Made by a program: the position numbers and the translations under genes
The notes under the pieces: generated by a model
Told to the model about the DNA's origin: nothing
Database searches by the model: none
The model's input: the letters and a program-made list of their open reading frames with translations, nothing else
NCBI GenBank assembly: GCA_947631085.1
Contig: CANRJY010000012.1
Coordinates: 1 to 64,000 of the forward strand
DNA: 64,000 bases
Source: an uncultured Clostridia bacterium
GTDB lineage: Bacteria; Bacillota; Clostridia; UBA1381
Direction: 5' to 3'
In this document: piece after piece, positions 34,248-37,314 of the stretch
Position numbering within the stretch: the stretch's first letter is position 1
Layout: every line of letters starts with the position of its first letter

Positions 34248-34276
34248 TTGACAACATTTGAAAACCATGTTATACT
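34248..34276 (+). promoter_or_regulatory. Promoter of trpE-trpG
   Basis: TTGACA (34248-34253) and TATACT (34271-34276) with 17-bp spacing. Transcription should begin near 34283, just at the first triplet of the repeat array that follows. Confidence 0.8.
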
Positions 34277-34282
34277 ATCTCA

Positions 34283-34325
34283 CAGACGAGATGAGATTAG
34301 TTTAGATGAGACGAGATGAGACGAG
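34283..34325 (+). promoter_or_regulatory. Putative TRAP (MtrB) RNA-binding site in the trpE leader
   Basis: Eight (G/T)AG triplets start at 34288, 34293, 34298, 34303, 34308, 34313, 34318 and 34323, an exact 5-nt period. A CAG in phase at 34283 could be a ninth. The order is GAG GAG TAG TAG GAG GAG GAG GAG, while the 2-nt spacers vary (AT, AT, TT, AT, AC, AT, AC). TRAP binds up to eleven (G/U)AG triplets separated by 2-3 nt in trp leaders, so period, triplet choice and location all fit. No mtrB gene lies in the window. Confidence 0.65.
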
Positions 34326-34416
34326 AATTATTAATAATCGGGATATTTCTGTGTCTTTTTCTGTCCTAATACAGTGAAAAGGCATTTTTATTTAATGCCG
34401 GAAAGGTAGTGATATA
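34326..34416 (+). other. Remainder of the trpE leader
   Basis: The last triplets (AGAC 34319-34322 and AGAA 34324-34327) can pair with GTCT (34353-34356) and TTCT (34347-34350). A GGCATT / AATGCC hairpin (34381-34386 with 34394-34399) lies directly before GGAAAGG, the ribosome site. I see no U-tract terminator, so control at translation or RNA stability is more likely than attenuation. Confidence 0.4.
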
Positions 34417-35889: not shown

Positions 35890-36452
35890 TTATAATGATT
35901 GATAATTACGATTCGTTCACATATAACCTGTATCAGTATATCGGCACGCTTGATCCGAATATTGAGGTATACAGAAACGATAAAATTACCGTAGACGAGG
36001 TTTTGGCGAAAAAACCGAGCCATATTATATTATCCCCGGGCCCGGGTTATCCTGCGGACGCGGGAATATGCGTCGAGCTTGTAAAGCGCGCGGGAGACAT
36101 TCCCGTTTTGGGCGTATGTCTGGGACATCAGGCGATAGGGGAGGCGTTCGGCGCAAAAATTGTCCATGCGCCGCGTATAATGCACGGCAAGCGCGATAAT
36201 GTGATGCTCAACTGCGAATGTCCGCTGTTTAAGGATATCAATCTCACCGCGCAGGTGGGACGGTATCATTCGCTTGTGATAGACGAGGAAACAATGCCGG
36301 AAACGCTGAAAATCACTTCCTGCAGCGACGACGGCTGTATCATGGGAGTGCAGCATACCGAAAGACCTGTTTACGGCATTCAGTTTCATCCCGAGTCCGT
36401 GCTGACGCCGGACGGAATGAAGATGCTTGAAAATTTTTTGGCGATAAAGTAA
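35886..36452 (+). CDS. trpG: Anthranilate synthase component II (glutamine amidotransferase)
   Basis: A 188-residue class-I glutaminase subunit that feeds ammonia to TrpE and may also serve PabB. The catalytic Cys lies in LGVCLGHQAIG, and the His-Glu pair in GIQFHPESVL. It overlaps trpE by 4 bases. The operon ends here at a strong terminator, so the remaining trp genes must be elsewhere. Confidence 0.97.
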   Translation: MIIMIDNYDSFTYNLYQYIGTLDPNIEVYRNDKITVDEVLAKKPSHIILSPGPGYPADAGICVELVKRAGDIPVLGVCLGHQAIGEAFGAKIVHAPRIMHGKRDNVMLNCECPLFKDINLTAQVGRYHSLVIDEETMPETLKITSCSDDGCIMGVQHTERPVYGIQFHPESVLTPDGMKMLENFLAIK

Positions 36453-36486
36453 ATCATAACCACCAGTAAACTGGTGGTTATGATTT
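36451..36486. terminator. Bidirectional terminator of trpEG and the metal transporter operon
   Basis: A perfect 16-bp stem (AAATCATAACCACCAG / CTGGTGGTTATGATTT) with TAAA loop. It overlaps the trpG stop codon and the 3' end of the minus-strand permease gene. Confidence 0.93.
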
Positions 36487-37314
36487 ATTCTTTTTTGATA
36501 AAAGCATGACGGCTATAAGCACAACAACGCCCAGTATAACTATCGTGCCGCCCGGGCGCCAATCGAGATAATATGACGCGAAAAGTCCCGCTATCGTGAA
36601 AATTTCGGCGAATACAACGGATAAAACCATCGTCTGCTTGTAGCTTTTCGCAATCATCATCGCCGCCGCGACGGGTATTACGAGAAGCGACGAAATCATC
36701 AGCGCGCCGACTATTCTCGCAGCAACCGAAACAGTCACGGCTGTGAGCACCATTAACACGAAATTTATCGTTTTGACCGGCACGCCCGAAAGCATAGCCG
36801 CCGTTTCGTCGAACGATATATAAAACAGTTCCTTGTACAGGAGCATTGACACAACTATAACAGCCGCGCCCAAGCCGAGCGTCAGATACAGTTCAAAATC
36901 GGAGATCGCCACTATCGAGCCGAACAGAAAGCTTGAAAGATTGCTCGAACCCGACGTTATAAATCCCGAAAAAATCGCGGTAAGACCAATTCCGGCGGAC
37001 ATCACCACCACCGCCGCGAGCTCGGAAAAACGTCCGAAACGCGTTCGGAAAAATTCAATTCCCAAAACGGCAATCACCGCGAACAGCACTCCGCCCAATA
37101 CCGGATTTATCGGTAAAATCTTCGCTATCACAGGATTTGAGTTAAGCACAAGTCCAAGCGCGATACCCGCGAGAGCCGAATGCGAAGCCGCGTCGCCTAT
37201 CGCGGACAGACGCTTCATAACGACAGGCACACCGATGCATGGCGCTACCGCCGCAATTACCGCCGCGACGAGAAAGGCACGCCGCATGAAGACATACGAG
37301 AAAATATTATCCAT
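36478..37314 (-). CDS. znuB: Zinc/manganese ABC transporter permease (ZnuB-like)
   Basis: A 278-residue membrane permease of the ABC-3 family with about eight helices. The family pattern VVMKRLSAIGDAASHSALAGIALG is near the N-terminus. It forms the channel for the ZnuA-ZnuC system encoded just upstream, whose ATPase gene it overlaps by 8 bases. Metal identity (Zn or Mn) cannot be settled from the permease. Confidence 0.95.
   Translation of the reverse strand: MDNIFSYVFMRRAFLVAAVIAAVAPCIGVPVVMKRLSAIGDAASHSALAGIALGLVLNSNPVIAKILPINPVLGGVLFAVIAVLGIEFFRTRFGRFSELAAVVVMSAGIGLTAIFSGFITSGSSNLSSFLFGSIVAISDFELYLTLGLGAAVIVVSMLLYKELFYISFDETAAMLSGVPVKTINFVLMVLTAVTVSVAARIVGALMISSLLVIPVAAAMMIAKSYKQTMVLSVVFAEIFTIAGLFASYYLDWRPGGTIVILGVVVLIAVMLLSKKNKS

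Follow-up and report, generated by a model that had tools for sequence, protein, structure and literature searches.

The window, that is, the whole stretch of 64 kb analysed here, carries trpE and trpG, which encode component I and the glutamine amidotransferase of anthranilate synthase (Table 1). A perfect inverted repeat with a T-run follows trpG, and the other tryptophan genes, trpDCFA and trpB, are on other contigs; the description of trpEG as an isolated unit in the first-pass annotation is thus borne out. Upstream of trpE, a scan of the region found five promoter-like sites against a mean of 2.0 in shuffled sequence. The best of them, TTGACA-17-TATACT, places the predicted +1 near 34282-34284; a transcript from it would start with the array of triplets described below. 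This agrees with the earlier placement of the array at the predicted trpE-trpG transcription start; a start downstream of 34325 had been named as incompatible with control by TRAP, and the predicted one lies at the upstream edge of the array instead.

Table 1. Features of the trpEG locus and of the candidate sites at the other tryptophan units.
Feature	Position	Strand	Basis
Predicted sigma-70-type promoter of trpEG, TTGACA-17-TATACT	34248..34276	+	11/12 matches, TG before -10
Putative TRAP-binding array: CAG plus eight (G/T)AG, 5-nt period	34283..34325	+	sequence; orthologous arrays of relatives
Predicted antiterminator 5′ strand, array units 7-9	34313..34327	+	RNA folding
Predicted antiterminator 3′ strand, overlaps terminator 5′ arm	34347..34361	+	RNA folding
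Terminator (attenuator) hairpin, then interrupted U-tract AUUUUUAUUU	34351..34385	+	folding, conservation
Attenuator U-tract	34385..34394	+	sequence
Shine-Dalgarno GGAAAGG of trpE	34400..34406	+	sequence; 10 nt before ATG
trpE, anthranilate synthase component I, 490 aa	34417..35889	+	TIGR00564 over cut-off
trpG, glutamine amidotransferase of anthranilate synthase, 188 aa	35886..36452	+	family searches
Perfect inverted repeat plus T-run, end of trpEG unit	36451..36496	+	sequence
TRAP-like site GAGCTGAGTTGAGATTAGATTTAAGGAG over trpD Shine-Dalgarno (trpDCFA unit) (L224/L295)	G000:C3:81235-81262	minus	conserved in relatives
TRAP-like site GAGAACAGAGGAGATCAGAATAGTGGAG over trpB Shine-Dalgarno and GTG start (L226/L296)	G000:C14:47495-47522	minus	sequence, relatives

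The sequence at 34281-34325 reads CACAG ACGAG ATGAG ATTAG TTTAG ATGAG ACGAG ATGAG ACGAG. It consists of 8 + 1 units, in which every spacer measures 2 nt and the triplets begin at 34283 (CAG), 34288 and 34293 (GAG), 34298 and 34303 (TAG), and 34308, 34313, 34318 and 34323 (GAG). All the positions given in the first-pass annotation therefore match, namely eight (G/T)AG triplets spaced exactly 5 nt apart from 34288 to 34325, an in-phase CAG at 34283 and two TAG units in the middle. This is the only such array in the window. When spacers of 2-3 nt are allowed, the runner-up among separate (G/T)AG chains of the 64 kb is one of 3 units, on the minus strand, and the reversed control reaches 4, versus 8 in the array. 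Likewise, a run of at least six consecutive KAGNN units occurs nowhere else in the 2.55-Mb genome, and the reversed-pattern control gives 0. Among the 43 ORF starts of the window, the trpE leader is a single outlier, with an array score of 8.5 versus 2.6 for the next best.

Between the array and trpE, the leader is predicted to form an RNA switch, in which an antiterminator that overlaps the array and a terminator (attenuator) hairpin would be mutually exclusive. The hairpin is weak and bulged, with a folding energy of -12.3 kcal/mol (z -4.0), which none of 200 shuffles equalled. It was not detected by a simple scan for G+C-rich terminators, and it was folding and conservation that detected it. 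In nascent RNAs that end at 34362-34378, the pairing of 34313-34327 with approximately 34347-34361 has a probability of 1.0. When the array is masked in the folding, which mimics bound TRAP, the probability of the antiterminator is 0 and that of the completed terminator hairpin is 0.99. In the completed free leader of this genome, folding at equilibrium with the array unmasked still favours the terminator (0.74-0.95). Thus, antitermination must be kinetic and depend on the order of folding, as equilibrium favours the terminator even without TRAP. The hairpin can be aligned in the leaders of 20 relatives, where two-sided changes preserve its pairing, and competition between antiterminator and terminator is predicted in most of these 20 orthologous leaders.

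TRAP is the textbook tryptophan-sensing ring protein of 11 subunits, an RNA regulator studied in Bacillus. The first-pass annotation had read the array as a target of this protein (MtrB), and a profile search did find an mtrB homologue in the genome (PF02081, E 4.5e-38). Its product of 75 residues scores 132.1 bits with the NCBIfam equivalog PRK13251, for which the cut-off is 117, and 46 of 69 residues are identical to those of TRAP 1c9s, which we take to be the structure of a TRAP-RNA complex. The residues that bind RNA are presumably K37, K56 and R58, while T25, T30, Q47, T49 and S53 presumably form the tryptophan pocket. T25, T30, F32, H34, E36, K37, D39, Q47, T49, S53 and K56, the presumed contacts to RNA or tryptophan, are kept in this MtrB. 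The position of R58, which we assume to be essential for RNA binding, is occupied by K here; some relatives have N or H there. In an alignment of 25 MtrB proteins from the order, T25, T30, H34, E36, T49, T52 and K56 correspond to invariant positions, and K37 and Q47 are kept in 23 and 21 of the proteins, respectively. As in B. subtilis, mtrB lies away from the trpE leader. Its position between homologues of dnaE and pfkA-pyk (neighbours named from their translations) is unlike that in B. subtilis, and so is the lack of a recognisable anti-TRAP gene. Anti-TRAP (RtpA) is a protein of about 53 aa that belongs to PF15777. It was not found in a PF15777 search of the 95 genomes of the order, which returned weak matches only. 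Two of these sum over the cut-off, as repeats within frames of 381-390 aa. The matches were rejected as anti-TRAP on account of their low scores and of their location, mostly in frames of about 380 aa, as expected of DnaJ zinc fingers; controls such as E. coli match too.

In this order, mtrB is present in 59 of the 95 genomes. Six consecutive KAGNN units occur in 12 of the 95, and 11 of these 12 carry mtrB. The match in the remaining genome (G078, which lacks mtrB) was rejected as a purine-rich stretch because the reversed control matches that genome too. A clearer relation is seen with trpE itself. All 28 genomes with a type-A trpE, defined by at least 62% identity to that of the window (with partial matches in G010 and G041), carry mtrB. 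A significant array is found in 26 of the 27 type-A leaders read; it ranges from 4 to approximately 10 units, with about five in most members of one related genus. The AG cores are kept while the spacers drift, a pattern that the first-pass annotation had proposed to look for in close relatives. The sole exception, G075, has no array in the leader stretch examined. Two variants of the arrangement were observed among these genomes. In G012 (L075, C98:8122-8632), the array is directly at the ribosome-binding site of trpE and no attenuator hairpin was seen, which suggests a switch from termination to translational control. In G002, G017 and G029 (L089, L079 and L093), the attenuator hairpin includes the trpE Shine-Dalgarno and the U-run extends into the AUG, and one hairpin could thus serve as both terminator and ribosome blocker.

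A second type of trpE, 46-50% identical to that of the window, occurs in genomes both with and without mtrB. None of its nine leaders contains an array, and all nine match the T-box model (Rfam RF00230), one above the gathering score and eight below it but with E values of at most 1.4e-8. Conversely, no T-box match was found in the nine array leaders scanned with Rfam, and the Rfam scan of the window gave no match, including RF00230 upstream of trpE. The T-box of Clostridia trp genes likewise attenuates transcription in the leader according to tryptophan supply, and does so at trpE in the same order, but it senses uncharged tRNA and is found at the other trpE type. From these sequences, T-box and TRAP control of trpE appear to replace one another within one order (L095-L102, L104).

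In this genome, the trp genes are divided among three units, trpEG, trpDCFA and trpB (trpF, trpC, trpA and trpB were named from their translations), and arrays are found at all three, with those of trpD and trpB covering the ribosome-binding site. Apart from the trpE array, a search of the whole genome that allowed two mismatches returned three places, namely the ribosome-binding sites of trpD and trpB and a place near an HTH gene (L227) that was taken as a chance match. The reversed control gives equally many matches at two mismatches, so it is position and conservation, not count, that argue for the trpD and trpB sites. That of trpD recurs in 19 of 25 relatives versus 0 of 4 genomes without mtrB. 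That of trpB recurs in 19 of 26 relatives versus 2 of 6 controls without mtrB at p ≤ 0.05, and is the weakest signal because it overlaps a purine-rich Shine-Dalgarno; within one related genus, its GAGagGAGaaGAGaaTAGTG motif is kept.

Arrays were also observed at other genes. In five genomes (G007, G016, G028, G033 and G037; L030, L034-L037), an array, a hairpin and a U-run precede a TrpB-like (NF009057) gene; all five carry mtrB, and four have no detectable trpE. An array precedes the gene for a TrpX-like substrate-binding protein of a tryptophan ABC transporter in G004 (L032, C224) and in the Clostridia MAG STF2_141 (L123). The fragments of TrpX and of the TrpB-like protein that were searched stay below the cut-offs set for full-length proteins.

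An independent screen of a collection of genome contigs found at least 118 stretches of eight KAGNN units, and most of those listed are microsatellites built from one or two kinds of unit. If a non-microsatellite array is defined by at least five different units, there are 17 among the matches listed, 12 of which precede trp genes (nine trpE, two trpP and one trpX). The remaining five are three arrays at methyltransferase-like genes of Paenibacillaceae, one purine-rich archaeal tract and one array at a locus edge. By its several 5-mers, the array of the window would fall in the non-microsatellite class. In the Paenibacillaceae, namely Cohnella thermotolerans (L125), Paenibacillus sp. OV219 (L128) and P. 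ottowii (L154), the gene whose ribosome-binding site the arrays overlap is SAM-methyltransferase-like and possibly an undescribed target of TRAP.

It is very probable that the array is a TRAP (MtrB) binding site in the trpEG 5′ leader that steers attenuation, and the other trp units are probably repressed as well. The presence of mtrB in the genome, the conservation of the arrays in relatives and the sites at all three trp units favour TRAP as the ligand, as first proposed, and the membership of this leader among TRAP-controlled trp leaders is well supported by comparison of sequences. Some features weigh against this reading: the terminator is preferred at equilibrium even in the free leader, the array has fewer than 11 units, K stands at the position of R58, a 5′ stem-loop is missing, and the hairpin is weak and bulged, although the B. 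subtilis hairpin is weak as well. Tryptophan dependence, actual binding, termination and the translational repression of trpD and trpB are what we infer from this. When tryptophan is plentiful, tryptophan-loaded TRAP would wrap the emerging RNA over its first ~45 nt. The last array units would then be unable to pair with the 5′ arm of the hairpin downstream, which is the pairing that makes the antiterminator. The attenuator hairpin could form instead, and transcription would halt short of trpE. Under tryptophan scarcity, the antiterminator would form and trpEG would be made. At trpDCFA and trpB, TRAP probably acts as a repressor that occupies the ribosome-binding sites. The first-pass annotation had recognised the array, which is confirmed, and had proposed TRAP as its ligand, which is supported; the terminator and antiterminator, the two other trp sites and the spread through the order had no place in it.

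Alternatively, TRAP may bind the leader and act mainly on translation, through a fold that blocks the Shine-Dalgarno, and not on the end of transcription. Such a fold has parallels in the Shine-Dalgarno-containing hairpins of G002, G017 and G029, in the hairpin-less array of G012, in the trpD and trpB sites and in the B. subtilis leader, which also has a Shine-Dalgarno-blocking hairpin (PMC11255114). Nevertheless, it is unlikely in the window, where the trpE Shine-Dalgarno is outside the hairpin and mostly unpaired in both folded states, and where a U-tract follows the hairpin. Recognition of the array by another protein, whether a transcription factor on the DNA or an RNA-binding protein that is not TRAP, is far less probable. 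The array is strand-specific and begins at the predicted +1, its rule of (G/T)AG plus 2 nt is that of TRAP, type-A trpE was found only in genomes with mtrB, and pairing between the array units and the hairpin is predicted at the RNA level. Finally, a functionless GAGAT-type microsatellite or purine-rich tract, which is what most listed eight-unit matches of the screen are, is hardly credible, and the first-pass annotation had already argued against a plain microsatellite from the varying spacers and the kept AG core. The array is built of several distinct 5-mers; its location is shared by 26 of 27 orthologous leaders, in which the spacers drift and the AG cores are kept; it is absent from nine T-box leaders; and all genomes found with this trpE type carry mtrB. 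Similar arrays adjoin trp genes in unrelated genomes.

Read as a TRAP site, the leader has much in common with that of the B. subtilis trp operon, where (G/U)AG repeats with 2-nt spacers also lie in the trpE leader and overlap the antiterminator. Both attenuators are weak hairpins of about -12 kcal/mol with an interrupted U-tract (PMC3913778). In B. subtilis, the attenuator is low in G-C, has an interrupted U-stretch and an energy of -12.6 kcal/mol, and needs bound TRAP for efficient termination (PMC3913778). By contrast, there are 8-9 units here, 11 in B. subtilis and about five in many relatives, and the leader measures approximately 135 nt versus 203 nt. The 5′ stem-loop of B. subtilis, a feature that is not essential to this kind of leader, has no counterpart upstream of the array of the window, since the predicted +1 leaves no room for it. 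The trp genes, in three separate units here, are also arranged differently: trpD (heading trpDCFA) and trpB are targets of their own, whereas in B. subtilis both are controlled through the operon leader. The arrays over the ribosome-binding sites of trpD, trpB and the trpE of G012 do resemble the sites through which TRAP represses translation of trpG, trpP and ycbK in B. subtilis (PMC11255114).

No paper on TRAP in this group came up in a literature search; major surveys of how trp genes are regulated (e.g., Gutierrez-Preciado 2005) were outside that search, and a prior mention is possible. For this reason, and because automatic annotation models recognise MtrB homologues, no priority is claimed for TRAP outside Bacillus. 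The new part is the predicted order-wide regulon with two modes of TRAP control. We hold with even confidence a wider picture, in which an order of Clostridia has a TRAP regulon without anti-TRAP that acts by termination at trpEG and by ribosome blocking at trpDCFA and trpB, that extends to trpX transport and a TrpB-like enzyme, and that uses sites of down to 4-5 triplets and, in some species, a dual-role hairpin.

A control system known almost entirely from work on Bacillus thus appears to operate throughout a different bacterial order. If this is true, TRAP would be a widespread alternative to the T-box in uncultured Clostridia. Its minimal version, with short arrays and neither a 5′ stem-loop nor anti-TRAP, would bear on how few triplets an 11-subunit ring needs. 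Furthermore, one regulator would control trp genes that are split into three units, through a mechanism that differs between units.
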